Positions 170-28,957 of a stretch of 64,000 nt of DNA are shown here, piece after piece. Positions within the stretch are counted from its first letter, which is position 1; each line of letters opens with the position of its first letter. Position numbers and translations under genes: made by a program. The stretch is taken from assembly GCF_003789055.1 (NCBI RefSeq), contig NZ_ML119082.1, positions 124,001 to 188,000 on the forward strand, written 5' to 3'. Below the pieces are notes generated by a model. It was not told the origin of the DNA. It saw only the letters and a program-made list of their open reading frames with translations, and searched no databases. Source of the DNA: Histidinibacterium lentulum. Its GTDB lineage: Bacteria > Pseudomonadota > Alphaproteobacteria > Rhodobacterales > Rhodobacteraceae.

Positions 170-841
170 CTAGAAATAGGCGAGGCGCTCGGCGGTGTGC
201 CGGTCGACCGCTTCCCGATAAAGGTCGACATCCTCCGCACAAAGGCCGAAGACCTTCTTTCGGTGGCTTTCGGTCACGTCAATGAAGGACGTGTTGGCCC
301 TCAGACTGGCTTCCCGATTCGCTCTGGTGTTCACGCGTGGCGCCCTGACCGAAAAATCGAAACTGAACTTGGCCGTGAACGCCTTCATGGACTCGTGCAG
401 CCGCTCGGTCAGAAAGACATGATCCATATCCCTGATAGATACGCCATCCAGATGCACTTTCTGGGCGTTCCCAATGTTGTCGCTTCGCGCGAAATCCACG
501 ACGTCCATTCGCCCCTCCTGAATCGCCCTGCCCTGCCAGGAGCGCCCATCGGCCGCCAGATGATAATACTGGCTGACCACGCGATCGACAGGATGACGAA
601 TGCACGTCAGGTAAACGGCATCGGGCAGCAGAGTCCTGTACTTCGTCACGAAGAAGTGGCCGAAAATGACCCTGTAATAGCTTCCGATGAAACCGATATT
701 CTCTGAAATCTCCGGCTGGACAGCCCTTGCGTAGCGATACTCCGGGTCATAATCCCAGAAAACCCGCCGCGCCGAAGAGAAATCGAAGGCATGTCCGAGC
801 GCCGTTCCAGCGGTCTTGGGAATATGGGCGAATACAAACAT
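170..841 (-). CDS. Sulfotransferase family protein (sulfotransferase-2 type)
   Basis: This 223-residue protein has the PAPS-binding 5'-phosphosulfate loop at its N terminus (FAHIPKTAGT) and a 3'-phosphate motif RHPVDRVVSQYY near residue 82. Both are typical of Golgi-type/bacterial carbohydrate sulfotransferases that move sulfate from PAPS to a sugar hydroxyl. It is the last gene of a minus-strand operon. Its ATG at 841 shares its A with the upstream TGA; a GTG one codon earlier (844) would give a GTGA overlap. The acceptor sugar is unknown; a polysaccharide or lipopolysaccharide is inferred from the neighbouring glycosyltransferase. GC is low for this genome. Confidence 0.75.
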   Translation of the reverse strand: MFVFAHIPKTAGTALGHAFDFSSARRVFWDYDPEYRYARAVQPEISENIGFIGSYYRVIFGHFFVTKYRTLLPDAVYLTCIRHPVDRVVSQYYHLAADGRSWQGRAIQEGRMDVVDFARSDNIGNAQKVHLDGVSIRDMDHVFLTERLHESMKAFTAKFSFDFSVRAPRVNTRANREASLRANTSFIDVTESHRKKVFGLCAEDVDLYREAVDRHTAERLAYF

Positions 842-2847
842 CACACGAGATCCCGACTTTCAAGCTGATCCGCCGTCTCCGCGCAGACCGCTCTCCAGCT
901 GTGCGATCCGGCAACGAAGACCCCGGCACGACGTGCTTCCAGATCCTCCACGCGGTCGAAGGCCGAATGAAGACCTCTGACGATATCGTCGAGACGGAGA
1001 TCCACCGGAATGAGGTTCGGCGATACCCGTGACAGCCGCTCCGCACTCCGATTATGGAAGGTATTGGTGATGACGAGAGCGCCCGCCGAAAGAAGCTCAT
1101 AGGGTACGACGCTGGGATGCGGCGCATACATCAGGCTCAGCCCTATATCGACATTCCTGACCGTCTCCATATACTCGGAGAACGGCAACCGATTCCGGAC
1201 AGTCAAGCTGTGATCGGGACCGAGGCTGATCGACTGCACTTCCGACAGAGACCCCAGGCCCAAGAAACTCCATGGCTTCTCGAGCTGCCGTTCCCTCAGG
1301 AACTGGCGAAGCGCCAGAACATTGATCTCGAAGATATTTCTACCTGCATGTGACTCGGGCCGCGCATACATGAAGAACAGCCCGTTCTGCCGGGCCTCGA
1401 TCGTCACCGGATCGAACCTCGGAACCACATGATCGAAGACGTGGAAGTCCGGCGTCTCGCCCGCGTCCATCCTCGAGAAGGCGCCGATTCTGTTGTCCCG
1501 GAAGAAATCTGCGAGAGGCTGAGAATTGAAGATCGGAAAGTAATCAAACGAATAACTCTGATCGCAGAGAAATCTCACCGAGTTGTACTCATAGAAGACC
1601 GGTTCATACTCCTGGATCAGAAAGCTGAAGCGTTTCTCGGTCGTCTGCGAAGCGATTTTCTTCGCAATGTACGTGTCCCAGGTGCTATAGGCCATGACCC
1701 GGTCGTTTCGGCCGACGTGAACCGCAGAATTCACGCTCTGGCTGGTGATCTTCCTGAAAATTGCGGTCGTCTCGGGGTCGTCTCTGTTGTGGTAGAGGAA
1801 GTAATCCAGGCCATCGTAGGCGCTGTTTCCCTTGACGATATTTATCGCCTTGCCCCGTCGCCCGAGCTCCTTGACGAGTTCAATCAGGCTCTTGTAGCCG
1901 GCGAACTCGATATCGGGATTGAGGTCGGGCAAGACGACGTGAATGACACGGTCGTTGCCGCTGCGTTCGACTATCCTCGCCCCCCTGATCTTGCTCTCGA
2001 GCTCGTCCACCCGACGTACCAGATCGGGAGCGGTGAGGTTCGGGACGCGAACCTCTATCGCTGATCGGAGCTTGTGGCGTCCCAGACGGCCTTCCGATTG
2101 ACCGGTAATGTAGTAATGATGAAAACCGCACAGCAGGTCGCCGTTCCTGACAGCGTTCCGAACGTCGTCATAGAACGCGAGATAGAAGGCCTCGTCAAAA
2201 TCCCGAACCGGTGAAAGACCGTTTCTCATTCCGTGGTTGAAGTAATCGACCAGGGCTTCGGAGCGCCTCGACTCTCGCAACTCCGGCCTCTGCTCCAGGT
2301 AGAAATCATGGTCGAAGACCAGAGAAACCATCTTGTAGAAATTCTCGGCCTGTTCCTCCTCCACACCATCAAGGACGATATAGCGCCTGGCGAGTTCATC
2401 GACGCTGAACTGGGGGAAGTACTCGATAAATCTTGCGAAATACCGTCCTTCCCTACCATGAATATGCAACCGGGCAGCTGGTGATTGATAGCAGACCGCC
2501 AGGTCGGTGTTTGGCAGCCGTCCTTCCTGACACCCGTAAAGCAGAAAGTGGACAAAACCCGAGACGAGATCTCCTGCCTCGATGGCTTCCCTGACATCCG
2601 TGTTCCGGGCCCGATAGCCGAGCTCGCTGAAGACGGGATTGGGGCTGCATGTCTGGAGCTCGGGGGTGCTCATGTACGTTTCCGCCAGCTCCAGAGCAGT
2701 GAGCTTCTCAGGCAGGGTCATGCCGGACTGCGCCTGAAGGGTCCTGCGGTCAAGCGACGGTGCTATGAGCGAAGCCACCTGATCCTGATCGCCAAGAAAC
2801 GTGCTTATTGCCTTCGTGACGCTTCGGATGATGTGAGGAGACTTCAT
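841..2847 (-). CDS. WsaF-like glycosyltransferase with N-terminal repeated module
   Basis: The 668-residue protein has a C-terminal half (about 298-660) that looks like the WsaF family of GT4-like rhamnosyltransferases, with FLIQEYEPVFYEYNSVRFLC as the hallmark. It should transfer a sugar from a nucleotide donor to a growing surface polysaccharide. The N-terminal half carries about three copies of a module of the form YL/FYD-DV-..GDL..GF.H(F/Y)...G..EGR (about 76-110, 178-212 and 217-254). I chose ATG 2847 because GGAAGAG lies just upstream; an in-frame start at 2949 would overlap the upstream sulfotransferase by 50 bases. It overlaps the next gene by one to four bases. Donor and acceptor are not known. 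Confidence 0.72.
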   Translation of the reverse strand: MKSPHIIRSVTKAISTFLGDQDQVASLIAPSLDRRTLQAQSGMTLPEKLTALELAETYMSTPELQTCSPNPVFSELGYRARNTDVREAIEAGDLVSGFVHFLLYGCQEGRLPNTDLAVCYQSPAARLHIHGREGRYFARFIEYFPQFSVDELARRYIVLDGVEEEQAENFYKMVSLVFDHDFYLEQRPELRESRRSEALVDYFNHGMRNGLSPVRDFDEAFYLAFYDDVRNAVRNGDLLCGFHHYYITGQSEGRLGRHKLRSAIEVRVPNLTAPDLVRRVDELESKIRGARIVERSGNDRVIHVVLPDLNPDIEFAGYKSLIELVKELGRRGKAINIVKGNSAYDGLDYFLYHNRDDPETTAIFRKITSQSVNSAVHVGRNDRVMAYSTWDTYIAKKIASQTTEKRFSFLIQEYEPVFYEYNSVRFLCDQSYSFDYFPIFNSQPLADFFRDNRIGAFSRMDAGETPDFHVFDHVVPRFDPVTIEARQNGLFFMYARPESHAGRNIFEINVLALRQFLRERQLEKPWSFLGLGSLSEVQSISLGPDHSLTVRNRLPFSEYMETVRNVDIGLSLMYAPHPSVVPYELLSAGALVITNTFHNRSAERLSRVSPNLIPVDLRLDDIVRGLHSAFDRVEDLEARRAGVFVAGSHSWRAVCAETADQLESRDLV

Positions 2848-2899
2848 CGTTTTTCTCTTCCTTGGACGACAACCGGCTGAGCGCCATGGATGCCGGCGT

Positions 2900-3667
2900 T
2901 CAAAGCATGTGAGAAATGCCGTTTTCGTTCGCGAAATGGACGACGTCATCGTAATTCTCGATGACGCTCGACAGATCGTCGCTCGTGATCTTCAGGTAGG
3001 TATCGCCCGCTTCCCAGGCTGACGCATCGACCCCGATGTGTTCCATGACGCGGCCGACGACAGAATCCCGGTCCGAGGCATAATCCTCGTAGGTGATGTC
3101 GAGCCGGCCTTCGAACCTCTCGGCGATCTTGTCCAGATAGCTGTAGTTGCGGTCTATGCCCTTCATCAGCTGGCGCAGTTCTTCGATGTTGACCTTGAAG
3201 CTTTCCTCTCTGAACGCCTTCAAAATCCCCGCGTCTTCCGCCGTCACATGCGCGGAGCTACTGCCCGGTTTCATCATGGCCGAGTACTCACGAAGCCGCC
3301 GCGCATTCAAGGCCGAGAGAGCCTGTTTCAATCTGTTCTGACGCCGCAGGCAGATGACTGCAGGCCGGTATTCATTGGCGACCTTGGCGAATCGCATCGG
3401 GGCAGTGAACTGCTCGCCCGTCCGGGTGACCTGAAACTTGAAGCCGCGTGACAGTCCGTCGGGCGGCTGCCCACCGTTCTTGAAGTGACCCCAGTAACGG
3501 CGCAGGAACTTGATCCTGTTATCGTCGGTCTGCTCCATTTCGCCGGGCAGGAACTTGTTCCCGAAGACCTCCGCTCGCATGAAGACCTGCGGATGAGACT
3601 TGAGATTTCCATAGAGCGCAGTCGACCCGCTCCGCGCCGTGAAGATCACTACGAAGGGCCTGGGCAA
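2900..3667 (-). CDS. Sulfotransferase family protein (Stf0/LPS-sulfotransferase-like)
   Basis: This 255-residue protein starts with FVVIFTARSGSTAL, a P-loop-like PAPS-binding motif of the kind seen in the Stf0/LPS sulfotransferase group. The C-terminal stretch YLKITSDDLSSVIENYDDV also resembles that group. It differs from both other sulfotransferases in the cluster. The start is a TTG at 3667, supported by AAGGAG about ten bases upstream. It lies 52 bases ahead of the glycosyltransferase start, in the same minus-strand unit. The acceptor is unknown. Confidence 0.7.
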   Translation of the reverse strand: MPRPFVVIFTARSGSTALYGNLKSHPQVFMRAEVFGNKFLPGEMEQTDDNRIKFLRRYWGHFKNGGQPPDGLSRGFKFQVTRTGEQFTAPMRFAKVANEYRPAVICLRRQNRLKQALSALNARRLREYSAMMKPGSSSAHVTAEDAGILKAFREESFKVNIEELRQLMKGIDRNYSYLDKIAERFEGRLDITYEDYASDRDSVVGRVMEHIGVDASAWEAGDTYLKITSDDLSSVIENYDDVVHFANENGISHML

Positions 3668-3768
3668 GTTCTCGGTCTCCTTGTTCGGCGGTGCGTGGCG
3701 CGCCGGGGCGCATTGAAGTTGACTCCGAAGTCGGCGCGGACAGTATCCGACGATCCGTGGTCAAGGGA

Positions 3769-4860
3769 CTAGACTGCAGCCCTGCTGACTTTTCTCACGA
3801 GCCGCTCGGCACGCTGGACCAACGGGCTCAAATTGCGATTTTCCACAGCGGCAGCCGAGAGAGCCGTCATTGCCACCTCGATCTCTTCGGGTGGCGGACG
3901 CCCGCTGATATCGAGGAACGGCAGATCCTTGGTCCTGCTGTGCCGAATGACTTCAAATGACTCGCCGAACATCTTGACGAGATTTTCATTGCCCTTCTCG
4001 AACCGCGGCGTGATCTGGGCAATCTGGGCGGTCGACAGGTAGGAGGCCGGCCTGCTTCGATCCCCGAAATCGATCGCTTTCAGCGTCGCCAGAAGAAGGT
4101 CGTTCTCTGCCACGGTCGGCTTGGTCCGGTTCAGAAAGTTCTTCATCCGTATGCTGCGCGCCGAGAGAGACGGGTTTCTGTCGGACGTTCCCGGTTCGAC
4201 AGGGGTTTTCTGCTCCGCGCCGACCAACGACGCCAGGGTCGCGAACAGATCGCAACCTATATCGCCTCCGACAAGCGCGGTCCGATCGTAGGCGCGAAAC
4301 ACGACCGTCTTGAAGGGGTGCCCCTTCAACGTGGTCAAAAGCCAGTCGTAATCGAGAAATCGTTTCCCTTCGGTCGCCCGCACGAAGAAGCTATCCGGAT
4401 TGACCCGCTGACCGCGCTTGACGCTTTGTCCAAGCGCGGACTGAACCTGGTCTACCTGGTTACGGACATAGAAGATGACCGAGACATCGTAACGATCTGG
4501 GGGAAACTCCGCGAAGAGACGCTGCCAGCTCCTGGTGCCGAAACCCGAGAAGAACTCGGAAGACAGGACCACGCCCTGCTCCGGCGGCAGACTGGCGATC
4601 TCTTCCAGCAGCCTTCTGTGCCGCAGGCGGAAAATGCCCTCTTTCGGATGGATGCGGTCGCCGGCCTCGGACGACAGGGCCCGCGCTGTGGCGGCCCCGT
4701 TCCCCGTCAACCGGTCCGGATTCGTGAAGACGCTGGCTCCCCCCGGATAGCTGAGGTGCAAGCTCTCGAGGGCCCTCGTTTCGAAGAACAACGCGTTCTG
4801 CGCCGCTGTCGTCCCGGTCTTCGGCGTGCCCGCGTGAATGATCAGCGGCGTCCGCTTCAT
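3769..4860 (-). CDS. Sulfotransferase-fold protein, distant
   Basis: The protein is 363 residues from the ATG at 4860. It opens with [20 protein letters not shown], the PAPS-binding loop of the sulfotransferase fold (PKTGTT). A second feature, [20 protein letters not shown] near residue 130, aligns with the usual 3'-phosphate RxP..S motif but is loose. The rest has no family I can name. An in-frame GTG at 4875 overlaps the upstream TGA (GTGA), so translation may instead begin five codons earlier by coupling. It is the second gene of the operon and is low in GC. Confidence 0.6.
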
Positions 4861-4871
4861 GTCCCGCCCAA

Positions 4872-5120
4872 TCACCTGAGAGAGACGGTCACTCGGTCGC
4901 TCTGTTTCTCGAGCTTGGAGATCGTCTTCAATGCCACGCGCTTCATGAATGCCTTGTCCGAAATCATCAACCGGATCTCCGCCGGGATATTGCCCTCTTC
5001 GTCCTGGCTGACGTGCTTGAATGCCTTGCGCATTGCCTTGGCAAGCTCGTTCGCAATGTAGCCCTGGCCGTCTGCGCCAGTCTCGTCAGCGTCGGTGCCG
5101 GACAGATCGTGTTCGGACAT
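4872..5120 (-). CDS. Small hypothetical protein heading the sulfotransferase operon
   Basis: This 82-residue protein is not recognised. The first 20 residues are acidic and rich in D, G and T ([17 protein letters not shown]). The rest is a probably helical basic segment ([21 protein letters not shown], then [18 protein letters not shown]). No signal peptide or membrane helix is visible. It starts at ATG 5120 behind AAGGCTAGGGA and its stop overlaps the next gene's possible GTG, so it is the promoter-proximal gene of the cluster. A regulator or partner of the sulfation enzymes is possible but unproven. Confidence 0.55.
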
Positions 5121-5330: not shown

Positions 5331-8038
<2,708 letters not shown>

Positions 8039-8042
<4 letters not shown>

Positions 8043-9076
8043 GCGAATCTCCTCGGCGCGAAGCCCGCCACCGCCTCGGCGATGGCGCGGATATGGTCGG
8101 GCGTCGTGCCGCAGCAGCCGCCGACGACGTTGACCAGCCCCTCGCGGGCGAACTCGGCCACCTGCCGCGCGGTGTCCTCGGGGCCCTCGTCGTATTCGCC
8201 AAAGGCATTGGGCAGGCCCGCGTTCGGATAGGCGCAGATCGCCACGGGCGCGACACCCGCCAGTTCCGCGAGATGCGGACGCATGGCGCTCGCCCCCAGC
8301 GCGCAGTTCAGCCCCACGGTGAAGGGCCGCGCATGGGCGACCGAATGCCAGAAGGCCGTGGGCGTCTGCCCCGACAGCGTGCGCCCCGAGGCATCGGTGA
8401 TCGTGCCGGAGATCATCAGCGGAAGCCGCTGCCCGGCCTCTGCGAAGGCCTCGAAACAGGCAAAGATCGCGGCTTTGGCGTTCAGCGTGTCGAAGATTGT
8501 CTCGATCAGGATCAGGTCCGCGCCCCCGGCGATCAGCCCGCGCACCTGCTGGCCGTAGGCGACGCGCAGATCGTCGAAGGTCACGGCGCGGAAGCCCGGA
8601 TCGTTCACATCCGGCGACAGTGACGCGGTGCGGTTGGTCGGCCCGATGGCCCCGGCCACGAACCGGGGCCTGCCGTCCTCGGCGGTGGCGCGGTCGAGCG
8701 CGCGGCGCACGACCCGCGCCCCCTCGGCGTTGAGGTCGTGCACGGCCTCCTCCATCCCGTAGTCGGCCTGGGCGATGGTGGTGGAGGAAAACGTGTTGGT
8801 CTCGACGATATCCGCCCCCGCCATGGCATAGGCGAAATGGATCTCCTCCAGCGCCTTTGGCTGGGTCAGGATCAGAAGGTCGTTGTTGCCCTTCTGCGGG
8901 TGGTCCGAATGATGGCGGCAGACGTGGCCCGAACCCTTGCCGGTATAGTCCTCCTCCGAGAGGCCCAGCGACTGGATCTGCGTGCCCATCGCCCCGTCGA
9001 GGATCAGGATACGCTCCTTCACGAGGGCGCGCAGCTCTTCGGTTGCGGGGGAGAACGGAAGGGAGAAGGGATGCAT
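8039..9076 (-). CDS. metH: Methionine synthase, homocysteine S-methyltransferase part (split MetH)
   Basis: The 345-residue protein is the homocysteine-binding TIM-barrel of MetH. It starts with the [11 protein letters not shown] motif and has the three zinc-ligand cysteines C258 (GLNCALGA), C321 and C322 ([12 protein letters not shown]). In this family the zinc activates homocysteine thiolate to accept the methyl from methylcobalamin. It ends in the linker sequence [13 protein letters not shown], and its TGA overlaps the ATG of the second metH gene, so the two are probably translationally coupled. It could be confused with BHMT/MmuM enzymes, but length, linker and partner argue for MetH. Candidate operators lie upstream. 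Confidence 0.93.
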
Positions 9077-28880: not shown

Positions 28881-28957
28881 TGGCGGTCCCTGAAGGACTC
28901 GAACCCTCAACCTGCCGATTAGAAGTCGGCTGCTCTATCCAGTTGAGCTAAGGGACC
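28881..28957 (-). tRNA. tRNA-Arg (anticodon UCU)
   Basis: On the minus strand the sequence folds as a complete tRNA: acceptor GGTCCCT with AGGGACC, D-arm TTAGCTCAACTGGATAGAGCA, anticodon stem CCGA/TCGG with loop CTTCTAA giving anticodon TCT, and T-arm GAGGGTTCGAGTCCTTC. CCA is encoded at the 3' end (28881-28883). It reads AGA and AGG codons, which are rare in this GC-rich genome. Confidence 0.96.

Follow-up and report, generated by a model that had tools for sequence, protein, structure and literature searches.

The window analysed here is a 64,000-nucleotide stretch of the genome of Histidinibacterium lentulum (Rhodobacteraceae; contig NZ_ML119082.1, positions 124,001 to 188,000), and its positions 170 to 5120 hold a compact island of five open reading frames (ORFs), all open and all on the minus strand. 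In order of transcription they encode a small protein (SP), a sulfotransferase-type protein (ST3), a second sulfotransferase-like protein (ST2), a WsaF-type glycosyltransferase (GT) and a third sulfotransferase-like protein (ST1), as listed in Table 1. ORF inspection and a Pfam scan of positions 170 to 5120 found no nucleotide-sugar, polymerase, assembly or export gene.

Table 1. Genes of the island, in window coordinates.
Gene	Position	Strand	Length (aa)	Start and basis of assignment
ST1, Sulfotransfer_2-type	170..844	minus	224	likely start ATG 841, TGATG overlap with GT stop; Pfam, PAPS-type loop
GT, WsaF-type GT4 glycosyltransferase with N-terminal repeat region of ~300 aa	841..2949	minus	702 or 668	likely ATG 2847 (668 aa); WsaF_N, WsaF_C
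ST2, Sulfotransfer_3/Stf0-like	2900..3667	minus	255	TTG start after AAGGAG; Pfam Sulfotransfer_3
ST3, sulfotransferase-type	3769..4875	minus	368	GTG 4875 or ATG 4860; motif and profile match to 3RNL
SP, orphan ORF	4872..5120	minus	82	overlaps ST3 start by 4 bases (GTGA)

The preliminary description of this DNA, made without database searches, had proposed a low-GC island and had counted two 60-base lines inside the GT gene (1561-1620 and 2281-2340) at 47% and 50% GC; our counts are 46.7% and 50.0%. Over positions 170-5120 the GC content is 58.0%, against 69.0% over window positions 5321-64000, and the lowest of 1075 stretches elsewhere in the window (4951 bases each, 50-base steps) has 65.6%. 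The low GC of the island is well beyond chance. GC at third codon positions (GC3) is 0.70-0.78 across the five genes (0.69 for GT if read from its longest start), compared with 0.88-0.90 in the two adjacent metH genes. Codon z-scores are exaggerated, since the 23-gene reference had been pre-filtered at GC3 >0.82; the sliding-window GC result is free of that bias.

The five genes had also been described as one overlapping unit. This holds for SP and ST3 and for GT and ST1, which overlap by 4 bases each, whereas 101 bases separate ST3 from ST2, and ST2 no longer overlaps GT if the latter begins at ATG 2847, preceded by a plausible AAGGA site, instead of 2949. A promoter and terminator scan gave results close to shuffled expectation.

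GT passes both WsaF family models, with WsaF_C at E 3.3e-35 (121.3 bits) and WsaF_N at E 5.1e-8 (33.6 bits) against a cut-off of 27 each, and it matches the solved WsaF rhamnosyltransferase (PDB 2x0e) at E 5e-22, in line with the WsaF-like assignment made earlier. Like WsaF of Geobacillus stearothermophilus, it has a GT4 enzyme region, and five of the seven donor-site residues mutated in the WsaF study, as given in excerpts of that paper, are identical (Y247, R249, R254, H326, E333; PMC3898925). Unlike WsaF, it has an extra N-terminal region of ~300 aa, which contains two related repeat units (DV..A...G....GF.H....G..EGR) that have no Pfam model and are common to many alphaproteobacterial and some cyanobacterial repeat proteins. 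GT matches occur in 31 of 294 other family genomes; many of these rows cover the repeat region only, and over the enzyme domain no family match exceeds 34% identity. As a single query GT found nothing in a scan of genome contigs, while a two-sequence alignment found two full-length relatives and four partial ones (repeat region). The best relative of all lies outside the family, in Stella sp. ATCC 35155, and is 37% identical over 652 aa, nearly the full length. The second full-length relative is in a Rhodospirillales metagenome-assembled genome, in a gene run with an FkbH-type protein and, by eye, an acyl-carrier-like ORF; no ST1 relative was found near it.

ST1 matches Pfam Sulfotransfer_2 above the cut-off (E 1.7e-7). 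Its relative in Stella sp. ATCC 35155 is 45% identical over 233 aa (E 2e-56), and the HIPKTAGT loop, of the type that binds 3'-phosphoadenosine 5'-phosphosulfate (PAPS), and the RHPVDR..SQ motif are the same in ST1 and this one relative. In Stella the GT and ST1 relatives, with which GT and ST1 are collinear, are two genes apart with a methyltransferase between them. Acyl-modification genes lie next to them; the proteins encoded beyond the pair are an AMP-ligase, one of acyl-carrier type and one like AlgX.

ST2 matches Pfam Sulfotransfer_3 above the cut-off (E 3e-8). It misses the Stf0 (PF09037) cut-off by 0.3 bits (21.7 vs 22), and we name it Stf0-like only. Matches to ST2 are present in 2 of 393 other family genomes. 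Two similar loci, L112 (genome G072) and L113 (genome G190), encode ST2-like proteins with seemingly degenerate PAPS motifs alongside rhamnan synthesis F proteins, and in L112 GSCFA and Sulfotransfer_1 proteins as well.

ST3 matches no Pfam or NCBIfam model, and its predicted structure is unusable (AlphaFold, mean predicted local distance difference test score (pLDDT) 32.7). A profile of the ST3 family, built from a 13-row alignment, picks up 3RNL, a sulfotransferase of solved structure, at E 4.4e-11. Throughout that alignment K19 of the GTPKTGTT loop is kept, together with H14, G16, Q26, R138 and S146. The count of three sulfotransferase-fold proteins is carried by Pfam for ST1 and ST2 and by motif conservation plus the profile match for ST3. 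In four congeners ST3 has only weak matches (identity 33% or less, E 1e-7 or worse); all four were compared with ST3, and the family searches with GT, SP and ST2 took in one of them (G065). SP matches no Pfam or NCBIfam model and nothing on plasmids, its best E among 393 other family genomes is 0.03, and its model is a low-confidence two-helix structure (pLDDT 68). SP has no recognisable relative; it had earlier been described as an unknown small protein.

We searched 18 loci of WsaF-type glycosyltransferases (12 of the window's own family, two named Rhodobacterales plasmids and four from other groups) with an ST3 profile built without any GT-adjacent gene. In 10 of the 14 family and plasmid loci an ST3-type ORF directly follows the glycosyltransferase gene or is fused to it, and in nine it starts at the end of that gene (overlap of 4-139 bases or a gap of 6); ORFs of the fetched loci were called by simple scripts, so starts are approximate and the long overlaps are probably over-extended starts. 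One 1056-aa ORF (L011:511-3681) contains both parts, with the ST3 part at residues 793-958. The remaining four family and plasmid loci have no ST3-type gene beside the glycosyltransferase, nor do any of the four loci from other groups, and the profile had no match at 1e-3 in 1064 control ORFs. The nine GT-adjacent proteins retain an LH.G.PK.GST..Q loop, and their alignment with the ST3 family has a probability of 99.7%; none has a Pfam match better than E 0.037, and none of the five scanned has an NCBIfam match. In the window ST3 lies upstream of GT in the same gene run, with ST2 between them. Judged from Pfam coordinates, only two of 12 glycosyltransferase loci had a sulfotransferase within ~12 kb; as the ST3 profile showed, the association seemed low because Pfam has no model for the GT-adjacent genes.

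Named plasmid relatives of GT and ST3 lie mostly in glycan loci, several with sulfotransferases. In Roseovarius faecimaris plasmid pMME07001 a WsaF-type glycosyltransferase is followed by an ST3-type gene, in the plasmid glycan locus of Phaeobacter sp. G2 an ST3-type gene is adjacent to an Stf0-type gene, and sulfotransferases among glycosyltransferases are likewise found there and in Ruegeria sp. PR1b pSD20. Unlike the island, these are large, plasmid-borne loci, and their proteins are only ~25-28% identical to those of the window.

Candidates for the remaining steps of a glycan pathway lie elsewhere in the same genome. Contig C8 has an adenosine 5'-phosphosulfate (APS) kinase. A glycan locus of native GC on contig C3 (L090/L091, C3:155001-190000) holds rml-type genes, a KpsT-like ABC ATPase, several glycosyltransferases, several sulfotransferases and RTX-repeat proteins; its rml set comprises rmlC, rmlD, an rmlA-type nucleotidyltransferase (by family and place) and an rmlB-like ORF (by eye). 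An 825-aa ORF in this locus (L091:4663-7140) combines an alpha/beta-hydrolase part with a Sulfotransfer_3 and a Sulfotransfer_2 part. Contig C10 encodes Wzz/Wzc-type, GT4 and Sulfotransfer_3 proteins. On contig C2 (L093:7812-11159; C2:60001-76000) a 1115-aa ORF combines a Sulfotransfer_3 segment with one that weakly resembles GT2. Sulfated cell-surface polymers had been called rare in characterised bacteria; sulfotransferase genes are not rare here. Beside these other loci of the genome itself, a search of 17 genomes found Sulfotransfer_3 in all 17 and Sulfotransfer_2 in 16; the 17 are 12 picked for carrying a WsaF-type glycosyltransferase, the genome itself and four congeners (these last five all positive for both families), and the counts are lower bounds, as such genome searches missed ST2 itself.

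We consider it fairly likely (probability about 0.6) that the island came in by horizontal transfer and serves as a cassette for tailoring a glycan chain that genes elsewhere make; the transfer, the sugar, the acceptor, the sulfation and the partner locus are all deduced from the genes. The chain would be exported elsewhere because the island has no exporter. A lipid-linked chain in the cytoplasm would receive from GT (GT-B fold, family GT4) a deoxythymidine diphosphate (dTDP)-activated 6-deoxyhexose, for which L-rhamnose or a close relative is the most likely candidate, and ST1, ST2 and ST3, as putative PAPS-dependent sulfotransferases, would move sulfate to different hydroxyls of the added unit or its neighbours. 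PAPS may come by way of the APS kinase of contig C8, and the rml genes on C3 may supply dTDP-rhamnose; a resident system would then polymerise, and the finished chain could exit through the ABC exporter of C3 or the Wzz-type system of C10. Every supply step thus has a candidate gene in the genome, and a link between the island and a partner locus is presumed. The earlier proposal that the island builds and sulfates a surface glycan is retained in part: its glycosyltransferase and sulfotransferase types have relatives in surface-polysaccharide loci, but it cannot build such a glycan alone.

Several observations weigh against this reading. The five-gene set as a whole turned up in no relative, and neither the C3 nor the C10 locus is linked to the island. 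No mobility gene came to light; no recombinase was recognised among the flanking ORFs, which were read by eye without a profile scan. The PAPS motif is conserved in the one ST1 relative and in all 13 rows of the ST3 alignment, but not around ST2: the two relatives nearest to it within the family do not have the Ser that binds the 3'-phosphate (absent in two of three relatives). In the GT-adjacent ST3-type proteins the Ser of the 3'-motif is Gly, and a profile of these proteins alone finds no solved sulfotransferase. In GT itself, unlike WsaF as described in excerpts of PMC3898925, Arg stands for K302, and the signature PHPSYPPLE reads PHPSVVPYE so that the central Tyr, Y329, is Val. That Tyr position is Tyr in two, His in 13 and Leu or Val in three of 18 aligned relatives. 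Because of the Val at Y329 and the Arg at K302, dTDP-L-rhamnose is an uncertain donor, our leading guess from the sequence.

The island qualifies as a genomic island by its atypical composition and patchy distribution, and it was probably acquired horizontally. The transferred cassette proposed earlier agrees with this composition and with the lack of a close ST3 relative in the four congeners; the usual marks of an integration event, an integrase, a nearby tRNA gene or flanking repeats, were not found, the nearest tRNA in the window being at 28881 and no direct repeat flanking the island. The low GC could also be the usual drift of surface-glycan genes with no transfer at all. Surface-polysaccharide genes are often lower in GC, and the Stella and Rhodospirillales homologues are lower in GC3 than most of their neighbours. 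Against drift, twelve glycan genes from three other places in this genome have GC3 of 0.82-0.93, well above the island, and both the ST3 comparison with the congeners and the divergence of the GT enzyme domain from its family matches speak for an outside source; we regard drift as improbable. Slightly more improbable is that the island is a decayed, non-functional fragment of a larger glycan locus. The lack of exporter and sugar-nucleotide genes and the degenerate PAPS motif in ST2 relatives would suit such a fragment, whereas its intact reading frames, the collinearity of GT and ST1 with their Stella relatives, the intact catalytic motifs of ST1 and ST3 and the plausible ribosome-binding sites of ST2 and GT would not.

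A somewhat unlikely alternative, and the most serious of the three, is that the cassette modifies a glycolipid, a lipopolysaccharide core or a secreted small glycoside, and not a capsule or exopolysaccharide. Trehalose and lipo-oligosaccharide are the acceptors of the characterised Stf0 and NodH, and the near miss of ST2 to Stf0, its weak best PDB match to the NodH-type sulfotransferase 9vki (E 0.34), the short operon and the lack of a polymerase or exporter would all fit a defined small acceptor. However, ST2 scores 13.8 against a cut-off of 400 with the NCBIfam trehalose sulfotransferase model, and relatives of GT, ST2 and ST3 occur in loci of polymer type, where they accompany rml genes, rhamnan synthesis F, RTX-type proteins or ABC export.

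Sulfated, rhamnose-containing capsules are already known in marine bacteria, and the island is a further example, not a new kind of system. The excerpted account of Vibrio sp. KMM 8419 describes such a capsule, with its structure solved by nuclear magnetic resonance, and like the genome studied here that marine Gram-negative locus has glycosyltransferases with dTDP-rhamnose, ABC export, PAPS supply and sulfotransferases (PMC11641403). There they form one 80-gene cluster, whereas here supply, export and tailoring cassette lie at separate places and are known from genes alone (PMC11641403). Like the synechan xss cluster of Synechocystis 6803, as excerpts of its description present it, the island joins unlike sulfotransferases to a glycosyltransferase; xss has two sulfotransferases of distinct subfamilies, with OPX encoded elsewhere (PMC8205485). 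Unlike xss, which has Wzx, Wzy, PCP and eight glycosyltransferases, the island has one glycosyltransferase and no assembly gene (PMC8205485). According to the same excerpts, cyanobacteria are the only bacteria that make sulfated polysaccharides (PMC8205485), but the other paper reports one from Vibrio (PMC11641403); the distribution of the trait is therefore still being settled.

The recurring pair of a WsaF-type glycosyltransferase and an ST3-type protein goes beyond the earlier finding and is the part most worth specialist attention. We suggest, tentatively and at odds well short of even, that ST3 belongs to an unrecognised sulfotransferase family together with the hypothetical proteins encoded right behind such glycosyltransferases, or fused to them, in the window's family and in Rhodobacterales plasmids, and that this family is a dedicated partner of the glycosyltransferase. 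On this view the two would add one 6-deoxyhexose and sulfate it at once, and they would form a portable pair that moves between glycan loci and may, as in this genome, arrive with no exporter and recode in trans a capsule already present. Open-access searches found no literature naming both WsaF and a sulfotransferase, and no papers on polysaccharide sulfotransferases of Rhodobacteraceae or alphaproteobacteria. If the reading of the island as a tailoring cassette is right, it would offer a small, deletable system for asking whether surface-glycan sulfation outside the cyanobacteria can be supplied in trans to a capsule that genes elsewhere produce, and database 'hypothetical proteins' without a Pfam or NCBIfam model that follow WsaF-type glycosyltransferases would gain a candidate function.

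The island is flanked on one side by a plus-strand cluster of phosphonate-uptake type, read by eye from the ORF translations as phnD-phnC-phnE-phnE, and on the other by a minus-strand split metH (metH2, metH1). A comparison of the phnE-metH junction, proposed as a check on the transfer, turned up no relative that carries this five-gene set at that position, and no conserved empty site was seen. The 29 other phnE loci examined, with ~1.5 kb of flank each, contain no match to metH, ST1, ST2, ST3, SP or GT. The C-terminal part of metH (metH2) has no match in three of the four congeners, and in the fourth, which has one, its neighbours are other genes. In the window itself, metH occupies positions 5331-9076 as two adjacent genes.

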